Shown here: positions 9,580-51,051 of the stretch, piece by piece
Numbering within the stretch: position 1 is the stretch's first letter
Layout of the letters: each line of letters starts with the position of its first letter
Source: Methanobacteriota archaeon
GTDB taxonomy: Archaea > Undinarchaeota > Undinarchaeia > Undinarchaeales > Undinarchaeaceae
NCBI GenBank assembly: GCA_002687935.1
Contig: NZBN01000002.1
Location: 102,592 to 166,591, forward strand
Direction of reading: 5' to 3'
Length of the DNA: 64,000 bases
Translations under genes and position numbers: made by a program
Notes under the pieces: generated by a model
The model's database searches: none
What the model was told of the DNA's origin: nothing
What the model saw: the letters and a program-made list of their open reading frames with translations, nothing else

Positions 9580-9807
9580 CTAAGAGTCGCACTTGCTCAT
9601 TCCACACTCAGGATTTGTACAGGAAGAACAGCCCTGTTCAACTTTTAGAGTATTTTTTCCACAATTTGGACATTTTGCAAGGGAAGCTTCATCAGTAGAC
9701 TCTTCTCCATCAGCAGAATCTGTATCAGAAGTCACTTCTTCTATTTCAGAGAGACTTTCCACTTCCTGTAGAGAAATTGTAGCTTGTCCGAATTTAATCA
9801 CCATCAC
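9580..9807 (-). CDS. Free-standing Cys-rich (zinc-ribbon/redox) tail typical of class II RNR
   Basis: ...AKCPNCGKNTLKVEQGCSSCTNPECGMSKCDS; lies between two NrdJ ORFs that lack such a tail. Confidence 0.75.
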   Translation of the reverse strand: MMVIKFGQATISLQEVESLSEIEEVTSDTDSADGEESTDEASLAKCPNCGKNTLKVEQGCSSCTNPECGMSKCDS

Positions 9808-12314
9808 TTAACACCCCCTAAGTCAATCTTTCCAGATTTTACTGCATGATAAACTGTAGTCAGCCGACCATCTGCAAGAGATATTATACTGTCTCCTTTG
9901 AGAGTCTGCTTCTTGCCATCTTCAGAAGCTATTTTGAAGATCTTGTTCTTGAAATCCTGGAATTCTGAAGATTTGCTTCCAATACTGAGAATGGGGTAAC
10001 GACTCCCTTCCCTGTATATTGTTATACCTTTGAGACCCTTTCTCCATGCCTCAAGATACATGTTTGAAATCACCTCAGGCTCTATATCCTCAGGAAGATT
10101 ACAAGTGGATGAAATGCTGTGGTCTATGTATTTCTGGCAAATGGACTGAACCTCTATTCTCTTCTGCGGAACAATGTTATGAGCTGTTCTAAAGAAATGT
10201 TCAGGAAGTAGCCCCTTCAGAGAATCATCCGATTCCAGATTTTCAACTTTGTCAGAAAGTCCTTTAATATCCAAATAAGCCTGAACAGTTCCATGAAATA
10301 CTTTGAAAATTTTATTTCCGAAGGATTCTGAACGTCTTGTATAGTAGAGAGCAAAGATTGGCTCAACTCCGCCACTTACACCCATATAGTTTTTATCTCC
10401 GTCTTTAAAACCAAGAACTATATTTGAAATTGAACCAGTGGGGGCTATTGAAAGAAGTGCAATATTTCTAAGACCTTTTTCCTTAATGATTTGTTTTGTT
10501 TCTTCATCCAAGCTTTCCTGGAAAAAGGGATTTTTAGAATATTTCTCATAGTCATAAATAGCTGAGCTTCCTTTTTCCTCTGCGAGATGTGCAGAAGTTC
10601 TGTAAATTGTATTTGCGATGCGGCACATAACTTTCTCTATAATTTCAAGAGCTTCATCAGAATCATATCCAAGGCCAAGCTGATTCAAAAGGTCTGCAAT
10701 CCCCATAACACCGATACCGAGTCTGCGGGTTTCTCCGGCGGCAATTCTCTGACTCTCGAGAGCATTGAGGCTCTCATTCCATGTAACAACATTGTCAAGG
10801 AATCTTGTCAGATTTTTTGCAGAATGGTCGAGTCTCTCAAAATTAATTGAGGCATTATCAGTATATCCCTTGTCCACCATTCTTGAGAGATTTATAGAAC
10901 CTAAGTTGCAGGCACCTCCATCTTCAAGAGGAACTTCGCCACAAGGATTCGTTGAGCTTATGGGACGTTCGACATAGTTTGAAGGAGAATACTTAGTCAT
11001 AGAAGACCAGAAAATAAGTCCTGGTTCAGCAGTCTGATAATTTCCCTCAATGAAAAGATCCCAGACTTCTCTTGCCTTAACCAAATTTCTTACTTCCCCT
11101 GTATCATCTGATGCAAAATATAGTAAGAAATCACCAGAGTATTTGACAGCCAAGTCATAATCTTTGTTTGTTTCTAGCGAGTAATCACCATAAATATCTC
11201 TCTTTTTGATATCTTCAAGATCTGAAACATTTACCTTAAGGTCGTAATCACTGTGCAGTTTTTCATTGAGTGAGTCTATAGAGTCGAAATCCCCGAGTAG
11301 CTCGTATTCAGAAACATCTTTTGAAGGCACCCCATGGGAATAATTAAGAGCAAGAGTCTGAGGAGCTTTCATAACCGTTCCCTTCGGCTTTTTATAAAGA
11401 AGTAATTTATCAGAATCATGACTTGTTTGCTCGTCAACTGCCTGCATAAATTCATCTGAAACTTTTATACTTATATTTGCGAAACGGATTTGAGTATTGT
11501 CACGGACTTGTTTCTCAATTATTTCCAGCTGAGCATCAGTAAACTTGCCTGACCAGCTACACTGCTCAACAATTTGCTTAGTAACCCAGTTAGAAACCTT
11601 CTTTACTTTTAGGAAGTCCATAATGTCCGGATGCTTGACATCCAGAGTAAGCATAAGAGCACCTCTTCTTCCAGACTGACCAATTAGACCAGTAGTTAGT
11701 GAATAAATATCCATAAAAGAGACTGCCCCTGTAGATGTGTCAGCGGCGTTGTGGACCACAGCTCCCTTTGGACGAAGGGTGGATACATCAATCCCGATTC
11801 CCCCTCCATAAGATTCAGTTCTCGCGCACTGATATGCGGCATCATATATTGACTCTATACTGTCTTTTTTAATGAGAGCAACAAAGCAATTTGCAAGTGT
11901 TTTCAGGCGATAAAGATCTCCGGCTCCTGCGAGAACTCTCCCACCAGGAACATAATAACCATTATATAAATCATTGTAAAATTCAGACGCCCATTTTTCT
12001 CGCCCCTCATCAGAATCTTCAAGGGAAGCAATGAAGGCAGAAAGTCTTGCATAAACATCCTCTGGCCTCTTATCAACAAGATTTATGTCCAAATCCTTTA
12101 GATAATATTTTTTCTCGAATATGTTTTTTGCAAGTTCATTTCCGCAAAGATAGTCTGTAGAGTGGAGGGGAAGTGTCCCGTCTGCCTGTTTTTCCTTGAC
12201 ATATGAAAGAAGTTTTTTATAAGTCTGAACCGGTTCTTCACCAACTTTTTTAGCAAGATTGCTATCAAAATCAAACATATTAGCATAGCCATTAAGTGTT
12301 TCAGATTTTTGCAT
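9804..12314 (-). CDS. nrdJ: Adenosylcobalamin-dependent (class II) ribonucleotide reductase, no ATP-cone
   Basis: GGGIGIDVSTLRPKGA, NPCGEVPLEDGGACNLGSINLSRM, IAPTGSISNIVLGF, GITIYREGSR, LADGRLTTVYHAVK. Confidence 0.92.
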   Translation of the reverse strand: MQKSETLNGYANMFDFDSNLAKKVGEEPVQTYKKLLSYVKEKQADGTLPLHSTDYLCGNELAKNIFEKKYYLKDLDINLVDKRPEDVYARLSAFIASLEDSDEGREKWASEFYNDLYNGYYVPGGRVLAGAGDLYRLKTLANCFVALIKKDSIESIYDAAYQCARTESYGGGIGIDVSTLRPKGAVVHNAADTSTGAVSFMDIYSLTTGLIGQSGRRGALMLTLDVKHPDIMDFLKVKKVSNWVTKQIVEQCSWSGKFTDAQLEIIEKQVRDNTQIRFANISIKVSDEFMQAVDEQTSHDSDKLLLYKKPKGTVMKAPQTLALNYSHGVPSKDVSEYELLGDFDSIDSLNEKLHSDYDLKVNVSDLEDIKKRDIYGDYSLETNKDYDLAVKYSGDFLLYFASDDTGEVRNLVKAREVWDLFIEGNYQTAEPGLIFWSSMTKYSPSNYVERPISSTNPCGEVPLEDGGACNLGSINLSRMVDKGYTDNASINFERLDHSAKNLTRFLDNVVTWNESLNALESQRIAAGETRRLGIGVMGIADLLNQLGLGYDSDEALEIIEKVMCRIANTIYRTSAHLAEEKGSSAIYDYEKYSKNPFFQESLDEETKQIIKEKGLRNIALLSIAPTGSISNIVLGFKDGDKNYMGVSGGVEPIFALYYTRRSESFGNKIFKVFHGTVQAYLDIKGLSDKVENLESDDSLKGLLPEHFFRTAHNIVPQKRIEVQSICQKYIDHSISSTCNLPEDIEPEVISNMYLEAWRKGLKGITIYREGSRYPILSIGSKSSEFQDFKNKIFKIASEDGKKQTLKGDSIISLADGRLTTVYHAVKSGKIDLGGVK

Positions 12315-14134
12315 TATTTTTTCCTCCCCTCAAATTTGATATATTTTGAACCTGATTTCTGCGCCTTATCCAAAAGATTCTGAAGACCACCAGATTCTGG
12401 AACTGGAAGTGACTGTAAAGCTCCCCCCTCGAGAAATGGAAGTAAGCTAGACTCAGATAAAAGCTTATTGGATGCATCGAGCTCCGAGGAAGCCCAAAAG
12501 GAAGGAGTGTAAGCACCAATTTTTGATGCGGCATTATAATTTATTGAATCCACTTTAAAAAATCTCTCCAGAATTTGTGTAGCCGGGCACCCTGCTATTT
12601 GAAAATCCAGACCGCTTTGCGCTCTGTATTCTTCGGCATTTTCCTTCATCCTTCCAAGAACTTTGCGACCGAAGTCTTGGGCAGTTTTTTCAGATAACTG
12701 AGAACCAGTTACAAGTTCTACAAATTCATTCATCCCAGTTATTCCAAGTGAAAGTGGTTGGATATCCGGAATCAAATAAGACTCGTCGTCAAGAATTTTT
12801 TGCTGAAGAAACGGTAGAAGATTTCCTTCCATACTTCGATGAACGACTTCTCTTTTTAGGAAAAGTATGTCCTTTGCCGCCGCCATTCTCTGATCCAGAA
12901 TAGTAAAAATCCTAGCCTCATCACTGCCAGAATCATATGCAATTTTAGGAAGATTGAGAGTGACAGTTTGAAGAACTCCTCCACGTGAAACTTCACTCTT
13001 AGGATAATTGAAAACATACGATGAGTTTTGATATGTAAGACCTTCCTGATTTCCAAGAACGAAATGAGGAGTCTGGAATTTTTCTGCAAGTTCAAGTGCC
13101 TTGGAAAGTAAGTCCTCAGAAGGAGAATCCCCAAGGAAGAGATTAAGTTGAGGATAGTCAAAGGGCTTTCCTGCATAATCTCCCTGAATATAAATATCCA
13201 GGACAGCCATAGCAATGGATTTTGACTCTTCAGAATAGTCAGAGTAAACACCTTTAGTGGAACCGCCTGAAGAAACTGCATCAGAAGAGGCAAGATTTTT
13301 AGGAATCTCAAAATGCAAATCAATTGTAGAAGTCATAGTCTGACCCCCACGAGTTACATACATGTGGCTCATTTCAAAAACGAACATCTGAACCAGTTGT
13401 TTTATTTTTGTATAATCGAGACCTTTGACATATGGCGCAAGAAGAACATTGAAGGCTATGAGACCCTGACTCCCTGAGCAATTTATCTGTGCAGCAGATA
13501 GAACTCTAGAAGCCTGGAGGAAGGCCACATCAGAAGCCTTTGCAGGACCAGCGACAGGAGCGAAGAGTCCAAGTCCGTCAACTTTGAGACCATTTCTTAG
13601 GAAGGGTCTGAGATCATGTGAAAGGCAGTAAGGTCTTGTTGCAAAATAATTCAGCCGATGAATATGTAAATTCCCACTCATGTGGTCATCAACGCGAGTT
13701 GGCGGAAGTATATTCACATAGGTATATTCTCTTGAAACAAGGTCCGCCATCATTTTATGAACTGTTTCAGGATTATGTGGAATTTTTTCAGTCTCAGATG
13801 GACCTGTAAAAATTAGCTCACGGACATCATAGACAGGCATTCCAAGACGAGTGTACCTCATTCTGGCGGATTCGTAACCGTGTTCAAGAAGCTTCACGTT
13901 GACTATCTCCCTTATCAGAGGAGCAGTTAGATACTTTAAGTGCATTCTAGAGACATCGTGCTCAACTTCCTGAGAGATTGACTTGGCGATTGACTCATCT
14001 ATACTTGTCTCCTCCACCAGAGACCTTACAATCTTCTCCTTACTAAAGGGAACGAGAATATTTTGAGATGTCCTGACACGTACGGATTCAGGTTTTTCTA
14101 TTGAAGAGGAAACTTGCGCAGTCATTTCTACCAC
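12314..14134 (-). CDS. NrdD-like (class III RNR-like) protein with N-terminal ATP-cone, lacking a visible glycyl-radical C-terminus
   Basis: ATP-cone VRVRTSQNILVPFSKEKIVRSLVEE; NrdD-like NCSGSQGLIAFNVLLAPYVKGLDY...VTRGGQTMTSTIDL; C-terminus QSLPVPESGGLQNLLDKAQKSGSKYIKFEGRKK has no CxxC...RVxGY-type motif. Confidence 0.8.
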   Translation of the reverse strand: MVEMTAQVSSSIEKPESVRVRTSQNILVPFSKEKIVRSLVEETSIDESIAKSISQEVEHDVSRMHLKYLTAPLIREIVNVKLLEHGYESARMRYTRLGMPVYDVRELIFTGPSETEKIPHNPETVHKMMADLVSREYTYVNILPPTRVDDHMSGNLHIHRLNYFATRPYCLSHDLRPFLRNGLKVDGLGLFAPVAGPAKASDVAFLQASRVLSAAQINCSGSQGLIAFNVLLAPYVKGLDYTKIKQLVQMFVFEMSHMYVTRGGQTMTSTIDLHFEIPKNLASSDAVSSGGSTKGVYSDYSEESKSIAMAVLDIYIQGDYAGKPFDYPQLNLFLGDSPSEDLLSKALELAEKFQTPHFVLGNQEGLTYQNSSYVFNYPKSEVSRGGVLQTVTLNLPKIAYDSGSDEARIFTILDQRMAAAKDILFLKREVVHRSMEGNLLPFLQQKILDDESYLIPDIQPLSLGITGMNEFVELVTGSQLSEKTAQDFGRKVLGRMKENAEEYRAQSGLDFQIAGCPATQILERFFKVDSINYNAASKIGAYTPSFWASSELDASNKLLSESSLLPFLEGGALQSLPVPESGGLQNLLDKAQKSGSKYIKFEGRKK

Positions 14135-14220: not shown

Positions 14221-15114
14221 GTGGGAAATATGCTAGACCCTGAATTCAGAACACTACTCAAAGAAGAATATGGTTTCAGAGAAAACCACTTAATTTTGCT
14301 AAGCCATTTTATGTCTAATAAAAAAAAGAAACTTTCAGCAGAAAGTCTTTGGACTGAAACTGAAGTTCCTAAAGGAAGGATTTACGAATTTTTAAACGAC
14401 CTTGTTGACTGGGGATTCCTTGAAGTTGAATACAAAAAACCAAAAACCTACTCAATACTAAACCTGAAGGAAGCTCTACAAAACGCCATAAGTAGGAAAG
14501 AACGAAAATTAACTGAGACAGAAAAAAAGACTCTTGAAATGGCAAACAAAATAGAAAAAAGCTGGCGTACAGAAGTCGGAGAAAAAACAGGGAGCATACA
14601 AATTATAAGCAGTCCTGAGGAATTTTACATAAAAGCCCGTGAAATGTTAATGGACAGTACAGAGGCGAAGGTTTCAGAAAGAACACCTCTCCTCTTCCTT
14701 TCTACAGAAAGGAACTCAACATGGAGGAGGAGAACTTATGAGAGCATGATAGATATGACAGAAGCAAAGCGCCTAGATTTGAAATATATATTCTCTCTTG
14801 AAAATATAATAAAAATTGCATCTGAAAATGAAAACGCAGATGAAGTAATAAACAGTTTAAAGGATTCTCTTGAAAACGGCAACCTAACATGCAGATATGT
14901 AGCAGGAACCGGAATTGAGAGCATGCTTATTGTAAAAGACAGAGCACTTCTTGGAATTGTTTCTCCTAAAAGCGGATCTGTGGAAAATGGATTATACACT
15001 GAATCGAAGGAAATGGTGGATTCACTCCACAAGATGTATGACCTTGTATTTGATGAAGCTGAAACCCTTGGAATTAAAACTCTGCAGATATTAGGAAAGG
15101 CCCTGGAAGAATAA
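14221..15114 (+). CDS. TrmB-family-like transcriptional regulator
   Basis: N-terminal wHTH (SAESLWTETEVPKGRIYEFLNDLVDWGFLEVEYKKPKTYSILNLKEALQNAI) plus coiled coil and C-terminal effector-like domain; GTG 14221 or ATG 14230 start. Confidence 0.8.
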   Translation: MGNMLDPEFRTLLKEEYGFRENHLILLSHFMSNKKKKLSAESLWTETEVPKGRIYEFLNDLVDWGFLEVEYKKPKTYSILNLKEALQNAISRKERKLTETEKKTLEMANKIEKSWRTEVGEKTGSIQIISSPEEFYIKAREMLMDSTEAKVSERTPLLFLSTERNSTWRRRTYESMIDMTEAKRLDLKYIFSLENIIKIASENENADEVINSLKDSLENGNLTCRYVAGTGIESMLIVKDRALLGIVSPKSGSVENGLYTESKEMVDSLHKMYDLVFDEAETLGIKTLQILGKALEE

Positions 15115-15126
15115 ATTTATCTGGAT

Positions 15127-17973
15127 TTAATTATTTTCAGGGAAGGATTCTGAAAGCTCAATCTTTCTAAGCTTGCCCAGTTTGTATGTTTTAATTAGAC
15201 CCCTTCTTTCAAGGGTGTCGACCCAGCGAGACAGACTTGTAGTTGGAATGCCAGTTGCGTGGTAGATTTTTGCCTGAGTTGTTTTACCATCATTTTGTAA
15301 AATAAATTCTAGAATCTCCTTTGCCCGTGGATTGAGCATGTTCATCACTGAACTTGCTTCCTTTGACACAGTAATTTCGGACATGTTTGGCTTTGAAGGT
15401 TTCACCGAATCCTGAGATATCTTTCTGGAGAATTTTAGAGGACGTGGAATCTTTAACTCAGGAAGACCAGTTCTCATAACATAGGTAGATATTAAGAGAA
15501 ACATAAGAATTCCGCCAATCGACATAGTTGCGACACCTTTGTGGGCTCCTGACCAGACAACAAGACCGGAAACCCAGGAATTTGAATTGTCCTGCTCAGC
15601 ATCAACAGGGATATTTATCTTGTGAGTTTCTGCATCAGAAGAGTAGGAAAGTGAAGTATTATCTGAAATTAAATTTTCAGAAGAATTGACTTGCTCTTCT
15701 ACAGATACAGGTGCTTGTGCAGGAGCTGAATTAAAGCTTCCGCCACCTCCACCGCCTCCGCCGCCTCCAGCAGAGGAGCTTTGAGCTGGCTCATCTTTTT
15801 GGTATCTAAGGATGAAGATGAGGCTCTCATTTGAATCCATGTTTCTTGTGAAAGTGACTACACCTGAAGAGTGGGTGACACCATTAAGAGAACTATTATT
15901 ACCTGACTCAGAAACATTAAGTGAATCGTTGTGAGCATCACTAAGAGTAAATGAGATAACAACAGAATAGGACAGCAAAGAATCGGAATTTACAACGCTG
16001 AGATTCCTTGCAACAGAGAGAGTATCGCTTGGAGCTGAAACTGAAGTGGTGTATTCACTACCGAGTTCGAGGGAAACTAGATTGGACTTCATACAGGACT
16101 CTATATTCGATATATTAGACCAGTTCCCGGAATCAAGTGTAGTCTGATTTTGTGAAAGTGTACAATTCCAACCTGTTCTTCCAGTAAGAGGAATGGCAAT
16201 ATTGGAAAAGTTTGTAGAGCCAGTATTAAGGATACTAATATCTCTTGAAATTGATGTAGAGCCACCGGCGACGACGGAAGCTGAAGCCTGCCAAGCAGAA
16301 TAGGACTCATCGAGAGCATCTCCGGACCAGTTTGCACTGATTGTATAAGAAGTACCTGAATTAAAGGAAGACAAATTTCCAGAACAGAGAGTGCAGTTTA
16401 AAGAATCAGAAAAAGACCAGGAAATATTCGAATAATTTACTGAGCCACTATTGTTCAGAAGATAAGACAGAGAGGCATGCTGGACTGAGATGCTAGAAGT
16501 CCTGTTTAATTCCTGACTTGAGTTTAGAATTGATTTTGAGAGATGATTTGTTAGAAGATATGTTGTATTTGGAAGAGAGCTATTTGAAGGAAGTAGAATA
16601 CTTGAGTTTACTGAACAGACCTTTCTATTATTCAGTGTTGAAACAGTTCCGCTTATTCCACTGATACTGCAGGAGCTTGTTCCGCCGTCGACATAGAACT
16701 TAGTTATATTAAGTGAAAGTGAGGGAGACGAAGTAAAGGAGATTGCTTCTTCTAAGTTTGCAGTACTTCCAAAGGAGTTTGACAAGGAAATAATGTAAAC
16801 TGAGGAAATTGCACCACTGTGATTGTAAGTCAGATTGACATCCAGACGGTTCAGCTCCAGTATGGCTTCTGCTTCAGAATAAAATCGGAGAGGAACTTGG
16901 CAAGACGAATTCAAATAAGTACAGCTTCCAATATAGGAATTAATTGCAGATGAAAAATCTCCTGTTGAATTATTATCAGCGGCGTAAAAACCTGAGACAG
17001 ACCAGACCTGGGTGCTTCCAGCACGCAGATTTGGATTTTTTGGGGTCTTTGGAATTAAAACTGTGCTGGCGCCACCTTTTGTAAACTGGAAATAGTCCAT
17101 ATCCGCAAGAGCTGAGCCTCCGGAAACACCGAATTTGAACTCAGAAAAGGTTTGCCCTCCGCAGTTTGAATTCATACAAGTCATATGACTTGTCTGGAGA
17201 ACCTGCTTCCCATCAACATATATTGTATTCACTTTGCCGTTTTCTAGATAGGTATAACGATAAGTGTGCCACTCAGTAGCATCAAGACTGTAATTGTCCG
17301 TATGTGTGTATACGTCCCCTGGAGCATTAGCAGAATCTTTGAATTTTACATGATCTGTGTATATTTCCATTGCATTTCCTTTGAAATTATTATAGGAACC
17401 GCCACCTGCAAATTCTGAACCTCTGTGGAAACTAAAAATCATTTGTCCTGAAGAACTGTTAGAAATGCGGGCTCTGAACTCAACCGTAAAATTATCAAAT
17501 TGATCTGGTCTGTACTGAGAATTCAGATTCCAATAGCCACTTGAACCATTCATATTCAATATACCGGAACTTATTGAAGAACGTGTATTTCCACTTTCAG
17601 ACCAATTATAGAAAGTCTCATTAGGAAGCTGGCTGGCAGAGTAAGTCCAGTCCCAGTTCTCCCCTGCAAGAGACTGATGACCAATTAACCAGAGCTGTGC
17701 CCCTGAAACTGAGGTTCCGTTTGGAATACTGATATTAGAATATGTATAAATTGACTGGGAAAATGTATGATTTACGGGAAGATAGGAAGAACTTAGTGAA
17801 TTTTCATAAAAGGAAAACACAGGATTCTCCGTGTCAAGTGTAAAGCTTGTTTGGACAAGAGCAAATGAAGATGTTGAGAAAATGCACAAAAACACGAAAG
17901 ACATAGAAAATAATAGTCCATATCTAGCGAGTGCAGAACTTTTGTATATGTTTTTGTCCAAAAAACTGGACAT
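15127..17973 (-). CDS. Secreted/surface protein with lectin-like ectodomain, poly-Gly hinge, TM and cytoplasmic winged-helix domain
   Basis: Signal-like N-terminus; LamG/ConA-like FDNFTVEFRARISN...EWHTYRYTYLENGKVNTIYVDGKQVLQ; GGGGGGGGGG; TM GVATMSIGGILMFLLISTYV; C-terminal MNMLNPRAKEILEFILQNDGKTTQAKIYHATGIPTTSLSRWVDTLERRGLIKTYKLGKLRKIELS. Start set at ATG 17973 behind ggtgg. Confidence 0.8.
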   Translation of the reverse strand: MSSFLDKNIYKSSALARYGLLFSMSFVFLCIFSTSSFALVQTSFTLDTENPVFSFYENSLSSSYLPVNHTFSQSIYTYSNISIPNGTSVSGAQLWLIGHQSLAGENWDWTYSASQLPNETFYNWSESGNTRSSISSGILNMNGSSGYWNLNSQYRPDQFDNFTVEFRARISNSSSGQMIFSFHRGSEFAGGGSYNNFKGNAMEIYTDHVKFKDSANAPGDVYTHTDNYSLDATEWHTYRYTYLENGKVNTIYVDGKQVLQTSHMTCMNSNCGGQTFSEFKFGVSGGSALADMDYFQFTKGGASTVLIPKTPKNPNLRAGSTQVWSVSGFYAADNNSTGDFSSAINSYIGSCTYLNSSCQVPLRFYSEAEAILELNRLDVNLTYNHSGAISSVYIISLSNSFGSTANLEEAISFTSSPSLSLNITKFYVDGGTSSCSISGISGTVSTLNNRKVCSVNSSILLPSNSSLPNTTYLLTNHLSKSILNSSQELNRTSSISVQHASLSYLLNNSGSVNYSNISWSFSDSLNCTLCSGNLSSFNSGTSYTISANWSGDALDESYSAWQASASVVAGGSTSISRDISILNTGSTNFSNIAIPLTGRTGWNCTLSQNQTTLDSGNWSNISNIESCMKSNLVSLELGSEYTTSVSAPSDTLSVARNLSVVNSDSLLSYSVVISFTLSDAHNDSLNVSESGNNSSLNGVTHSSGVVTFTRNMDSNESLIFILRYQKDEPAQSSSAGGGGGGGGGGSFNSAPAQAPVSVEEQVNSSENLISDNTSLSYSSDAETHKINIPVDAEQDNSNSWVSGLVVWSGAHKGVATMSIGGILMFLLISTYVMRTGLPELKIPRPLKFSRKISQDSVKPSKPNMSEITVSKEASSVMNMLNPRAKEILEFILQNDGKTTQAKIYHATGIPTTSLSRWVDTLERRGLIKTYKLGKLRKIELSESFPENN

Positions 17974-18180
17974 TTTACCACCCCCAAGTGCTCCGTGAAG
18001 GAGGCTGTATATAAATATTCGGATATTGTTGTATATTGTTCCAAATTGGCTCAAATTACTGAACATTTCTCCACCTCTGTACTAAAATGTGTGTTTGACC
18101 TATTTAAAAAAAATCCCGCGAAGCCAAGGGAAGAACGCTTTAACAATATATAAAAAGGACAATTATCATCAAAGCCAGTT

Positions 18181-34100: not shown

Positions 34101-34745
34101 ATGAAGAACAACAATATTCGCATGGAACGCAAGTACATTTCTATATGGATTGTTGCAATAACTTCAGGAGCATTTTTGCTGCAAATGAATGCCCCGATAA
34201 CAGACAGTTTTGCTCTTATTTCTAGTCAGGTCGCCATTCACCCATGGACCCTCATAACACATATGTTTATGCACGGTGGAGCGACACACTTACTTTACAA
34301 TATGTTCGCCCTGGCTCTGTTCGGAACAATTCTTGAAGTAACAATTGGATGGAGAAAATTCTTGGTCATATATTTTGTTGGGGGATTAGTTGCCGGGCTT
34401 GCAGCAATACCATTTTACAATGCGTCAATAGGAGCGAGTGGTGCAGTTTTCGCAGTAATGGGAGCACTTGCTGTCCTGAAGCCAAAAATGATAGTTTACG
34501 TTGGCTGGATACCGATGCCGATGGCAGTTGCTGCTGCAGTATGGGCGATGGGAGATCTAATCGGAATGTTCGCCCCAAGTGGAATAGCAAATGCGGCACA
34601 TCTTGGAGGTCTTGTTTTTGGACTTGGCTATGCATTTTTACTCTTGAAGGAATTCCACGAGTGGGGAAATAAAAACAAGCGTCACAGCGCAGAAGACGAA
34701 TGGGAAGATTCCTATTTTGATAAGGATGAGATGCGCTGGTACTAG
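34101..34745 (+). CDS. Rhomboid family intramembrane serine protease
   Basis: HPWTLITHMFMHGGATHLLYNMFALALFG...GASGAVFAVMGA...NAAHLGGLVFG. Confidence 0.92.
   Translation: MKNNNIRMERKYISIWIVAITSGAFLLQMNAPITDSFALISSQVAIHPWTLITHMFMHGGATHLLYNMFALALFGTILEVTIGWRKFLVIYFVGGLVAGLAAIPFYNASIGASGAVFAVMGALAVLKPKMIVYVGWIPMPMAVAAAVWAMGDLIGMFAPSGIANAAHLGGLVFGLGYAFLLLKEFHEWGNKNKRHSAEDEWEDSYFDKDEMRWY

Positions 34746-48616: not shown

Positions 48617-51051
<2,435 letters not shown>

Follow-up and report, generated by a model that had tools for sequence, protein, structure and literature searches.

The window, a 64,000-nucleotide stretch of DNA, encodes a 948-residue protein that is probably a type I single-pass membrane one-component regulator, in which a long ectodomain would sense a surface or a glycan while a membrane-anchored winged helix (wHTH) would bind DNA. 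The window derives from GCA_002687935.1, a marine Undinarchaeales genome of 0.67 Mb in 11 contigs (PMC7414124), and genome-wide checks over its 666,542 bases were done by family search. The initial annotation had taken the source for a possibly host-associated archaeon, in agreement with its assignment to the DPANN archaea (PMC7414124). It had placed the reading frame correctly at 15127–17973; the strand, which it did not give, is minus. The ortholog in the second genome of the genus, SRR5007147.bin71, is intact and 89% identical, and has the same flanking genes. The gene comprises the following features:

15127–17973, minus strand: whole gene, 948 residues
17974–18066, minus strand: in-frame upstream extension to an alternative ATG at 18066 (979-residue reading)
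17860–17973, minus strand: signal sequence, residues about 1–38
17662–17859, minus strand: N-terminal ectodomain scaffold
17038–17661, minus strand: LamG/ConA-like segment
15769–17037, minus strand: Ser/Asn-rich ectodomain with many N-glycosylation sequons
15739–15768, minus strand: Gly10 hinge, residues 736–745
15472–15540, minus strand: transmembrane helix, residues about 812–834
15364–15471, minus strand: basic cytoplasmic linker, predicted to be disordered
15154–15321, minus strand: DUF7343 wHTH, residues 885–940

Both candidate ATGs are preceded by a Shine-Dalgarno-like sequence. The 31 codons of the upstream extension differ from the ortholog by 3, 2 and 2 substitutions by codon position (n = 7, which is weak evidence), compared with 68, 50 and 213 in the whole gene, and have a dN/dS of 0.67. 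Because the substitutions are even across codon positions, unlike those of the whole gene, the stretch more likely represents a 5′ leader than protein. The conservation upstream of the gene (191 of 207 bases) was considered as a special signal and rejected, as the upstream gap of the neighbouring TrmB gene is similarly conserved (82/86). This TrmB-type regulator gene (14221–15114, plus strand), which also shows a weak TbsP_N match below the cut-off, is convergent with the receptor gene across a gap of 12 bases. The arrangement is kept within the genus and absent at the UBA543 and Naiadarchaeum loci; no operon was therefore inferred, and the neighbourhood was dropped as a clue to the targets. 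Two adjoining reading frames at 9804–14134 (minus strand) appear ribonucleotide reductase-like by eye and are followed at the ortholog locus by a third, similar one. Directly upstream of the large receptor of Naiadarchaeum lies a 1064-residue secreted protein (L040:2453–5647), apparently with FG-GAP/VCBS-like repeats, again by eye.

The signal sequence, the ten-glycine hinge and the single transmembrane helix described in the initial annotation are all present. A hydrophobic segment at residues 14–32 follows K/R residues at the N-terminus; beyond it, hydropathy shows one transmembrane segment only (residues 814–832), which is also a helix in the AF2 model. The Gly-rich stretch is found as well in all four orthologs. 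The flank after the transmembrane helix is basic, with K+R at 18% inside versus 4% outside, and 39 of the 40 N-glycosylation sequons fall within the ectodomain. Together with the signal sequence, these features predict that the C-terminal wHTH is cytoplasmic; an inverted topology, named beforehand as a refuter, was looked at, and sequence rules put the C-terminus inside. The linker between the helix and the wHTH has pLDDT values below 50 at residues 836–866.

This organization suggests how the receptor might work. The ectodomain, including its LamG/ConA-like segment, would touch a surface or a glycan, held away from the membrane by the Gly10 hinge and the stalk. Contact with the putative ligand would alter the spacing or pairing of receptors, and the change would be transmitted via the single transmembrane helix and on through the flexible, basic linker, reaching the DUF7343 winged helices in the cytoplasm. 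These would bind DNA at candidate target genes while still anchored in the membrane, as in CadC/ToxR.

The initial annotation had instead raised the possible release of the wHTH by proteolysis. In a scheme of regulated intramembrane proteolysis, a ligand would trigger shedding, after which a rhomboid or site-2 protease would free the wHTH as a soluble regulator. The rhomboid protease and HtpX that the annotation had placed elsewhere in the window are both encoded there:

34101–34742, plus strand: rhomboid gene
48623–49513, minus strand: HtpX-like gene

The genome has a pair of rhomboid genes and at least two genes of the M50 (S2P) type, and the transmembrane helix contains the small residues SIGG. 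However, Pfam rhomboid and M50 matches occur in 14 of 14 control genomes, and their presence is therefore uninformative; the protease genes do not adjoin the receptor gene, and ToxR-like receptors such as CadC signal via the transmembrane helix and linker (PMC5430869). Nothing specific thus speaks for proteolytic release, which we consider unlikely. A separately started soluble wHTH was also considered, and nothing was found in its support. By analogy, signalling in place appears more likely than proteolysis, because the parts of CadC map onto this protein, in the reverse order along the chain.

The C-terminal domain scores 31.7 bits for DUF7343 (PF24034), above the gathering threshold of 27.6, and 36.6 bits in the genome search. 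The MarR_2 and HTH_IclR models score slightly under their cut-offs, so that the earlier description of the domain as MarR/IclR-like was accurate. The AF2 model computed from five sequences displays a complete winged helix (H-H-β-H-H-β-β) with pLDDT values of 79–89. A Foldseek search against the PDB returned wHTH regulators as best matches, some of them solved with DNA (best E 9e-4), among them Pyrococcus 1ub9, HlyU, MftR-DNA and RosR. The modest E-values are perhaps caused by the inclusion of the transmembrane helix and linker in the model. A lack of support for the wHTH fold had been named as a second refuter; Pfam, AF2 and Foldseek all support the fold.

Winged-helix folds can also act as chromatin proteins. 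The domain could accordingly be a structural tether, binding DNA without sequence specificity and fastening the chromosome to the envelope or to sites of adhesion without any switching of genes, a possibility in line with the basic character of the linker and wing and with a weak match, far below the cut-off, of the UBA543 tail to the Sso10a chromatin family. Against this, the Foldseek matches are mostly ligand-responsive regulators, DUF7343 genes are few in most genomes, and the family resembles regulators rather than bulk DNA binders. We regard such a tether as quite improbable.

Conservation across 75 relatives bears on the predicted DNA-binding function of the anchored regulator. Gln900 occurs in 72 of the 75 rows, and a basic residue (K/R) occupies wing position 934 in 92% of them and positions 931 and 924 in 84% each. 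The window protein keeps Q900, R916, the near-invariant G933 and the basic residues at 924, 931 and 934. In the recognition helix, residues 911 and 913 are T and S, where most relatives have K; the specificity or the strength of DNA binding may therefore differ from that of the relatives.

The gene is under purifying selection, as measured by dN/dS between the window gene and the ortholog of the second genus member. The value is lowest in the wHTH (0.035), followed by the LamG-like region (0.09) and the other main ectodomain regions (0.11–0.21), and rises to 0.50 in the hinge and stalk and 0.70 in the cytoplasmic linker. With the tightest constraint on its putative DNA-binding end, the fusion is unlikely to be decaying or decorative. 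The idea that the wHTH is a protein–protein interaction module without DNA binding, the protein being no more than an adhesin attached to machinery in the cytoplasm, could draw on the two missing recognition-helix lysines, but is very doubtful given the retained basic wing residues, R916 and G933 and the strength of purifying selection on this domain.

The ectodomain of the predicted regulator comprises 781 residues with 20% Ser and 10% Asn, in agreement with the Ser/Asn-rich segments noted initially; a Pfam search found no family in the region at 15769–17037. The N-terminal scaffold is common to the UBA543 ortholog (35.5% identity, E 1.6e-5). For the LamG/ConA-like segment, comparison by hhalign with two Pfam-confirmed Laminin_G_3 sequences gave a probability of 82% over about 70 residues (core match at residues 223–297; 17083–17307) and of 96.5%, again over about 70 residues, after two further relatives were added, both values being soft because the query consisted of only two near-identical sequences. 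No LamG model matched the segment in the Pfam search, no match was returned by a PDB sequence search, and no relative was found among the viral contigs and plasmids searched. The AF2 model of the ectodomain, computed from three sequences, has a pLDDT of 29 and is unusable. The ConA/LamG-like region of the initial annotation is thus weaker than the wHTH, being supported by profile similarity, but neither by a Pfam match nor by a structural model. ConA/LamG putative adhesins have been reported independently in Undinarchaeales, and none in Naiadarchaeales (PMC7414124). A PDB search with the full-length protein gave most of its matches at residues 692–792, near the Gly-rich hinge, and these were dismissed as low complexity.

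Matches to DUF7343 were found in 241 of the 297 archaeal genomes searched (~80%). Among the best 30 proteins, a transmembrane segment precedes the wHTH in 29 and an N-terminal hydrophobic segment is present in 27. Membrane anchoring, as predicted from these sequences, is the rule for the family, and the window protein conforms to the usual context, with a transmembrane helix ahead of a wHTH at the C-terminus. Devices of this basic kind are therefore common in archaea. The one-protein outside-in device proposed initially is still the best reading, but its layout is less exceptional than it had seemed. In five proteins (L043, L045, L047, L056 and L059; archaeal family f25), the segment between the transmembrane helix and the wHTH is longer, and that of L043 has sub-threshold matches to Pfam models of the coiled-coil type, a hint that the wHTHs may pair in another manner there.

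The Undinarchaeota tails stand apart within this family. In a profile search with the Undinarchaeota tail, five large Undinarchaeota proteins score 167–176 bits and the next best match 79.5 bits; their frames measure 806–985 residues, and the longest other frame among the matches listed has 538. All four Undinarchaeota families sampled have a large adhesin-like protein with the same wHTH subfamily. In a wHTH tree of 78 columns, with only moderate support, the five large proteins have tails that fall into a single clade (88/97), in which those of S016 and Naiadarchaeum are sisters (99/85) and are joined by that of UBA543 (93/82). The tree includes three long-branch rows (L023, L052 and L065) that are probably products of automatic domain cutting; the profile scores show the Undinarchaeota grouping too.

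The ectodomains above these tails differ. The window and UBA543 proteins have a common scaffold on both sides of the LamG-like segment, which is itself largely gapped in their alignment. The ectodomain of S016 is Ig-like with a weak DUF2341 match, and that of Naiadarchaeum has weak Fn3 and PGF-pre-PGF matches; these two proteins have a different N-terminal region in common (E 2.6e-7). The pattern is explained if the ectodomain was replaced once while the tail was kept, and if the LamG-like segment was inserted or lost. A receptor whose output is fixed while its input changes should show just this combination of tails from one clade and differing ectodomains.

The initial annotation had suggested searching for the same kind of tail on other surface proteins, and the genome does encode two such proteins. 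The second (L002/L003) has 319 residues with CWB2 repeats (38.4 versus 24.9 bits), a transmembrane helix and DUF7343 (61.2 bits):

G000:C3:27704–27928, minus strand: second signal–ectodomain–transmembrane–DUF7343 protein, with CWB2 cell-wall-binding repeats outside

The other two genomes of the genus also have DUF7343 matches of 319 residues (L052 and L053). A Naiadarchaeum protein of 291 residues (L033; G003:C5:1762–2070) consists of a signal sequence, an ectodomain of ~130 residues that matches no Pfam family, a transmembrane helix and DUF7343 (43.4 bits).

A broader and more tentative reading is that the adhesin of Undinarchaeota doubles as the transcription factor. It might be a lineage-wide contact receptor whose conserved output is carried on exchangeable LamG-like, DUF2341/Ig-like and Fn3/PGF-pre-PGF modules, with each lineage possibly sensing its own partner cell or surface. 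In these small, probably host-dependent archaea, a single chain with both an adhesin and a DNA-binding domain would allow partner-cell sensing to be tested directly, and since DUF7343 occurs in ~80% of the archaeal genomes sampled, the result would generalise.

Among known systems, CadC and ToxR resemble the window protein in logic. CadC has a periplasmic sensor, a single transmembrane helix and a disordered linker, and apparently signals without chemical modification (PMC5430869). In such ToxR-like receptors an external sensor, a single transmembrane helix, a disordered linker and a cytoplasmic winged helix are united in one chain (PMC5430869), as they are here by prediction. The ToxR-like wHTH, however, is N-terminal, whereas that of the window protein is C-terminal, behind a signal peptide, and matches DUF7343/MarR/IclR models; no OmpR-type DNA-binding domain was found in the protein by Pfam or Foldseek. 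It is therefore not a member of the ToxR-like family.

ArnR and ArnR1 of Sulfolobus acidocaldarius are likewise archaeal membrane-bound one-component HTH regulators, and control surface structures (PMC6396743). ArnR has an N-terminal HTH, HAMP-like and sensor domains and two C-terminal transmembrane segments, without a large ectodomain (PMC6396743); the window protein, by contrast, has a single transmembrane helix and a C-terminal wHTH, and does not belong to the ArnR type. The authors of that work described it as the first biochemical study of such membrane-bound archaeal regulators (PMC6396743), which as a class are scarcely studied. Our literature searches, whose coverage left out most subscription journals, returned only the ArnR work on archaeal membrane-bound wHTH regulators and no experimental paper on DUF7343.

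Within the lineage, the arCOG07813 LamG/ConA putative adhesins of Undinarchaeales are comparable surface proteins (PMC7414124); the main text of that report does not contain the term 'transcriptional regulator'. The nearest counterparts in layout are the archaeal DUF7343 membrane wHTH proteins, some with a DUF7345 ectodomain, which have the same order of signal, ectodomain, transmembrane helix and C-terminal wHTH. Typical members measure about 200–540 residues among the matches listed and have short ectodomains, whereas the window protein combines an adhesin-sized ectodomain, a LamG-like segment and a Gly hinge with a wHTH of a separate clade. The archaeal membrane wHTH receptor is thus known, and the adhesin-sized, exchangeable ectodomains are new.
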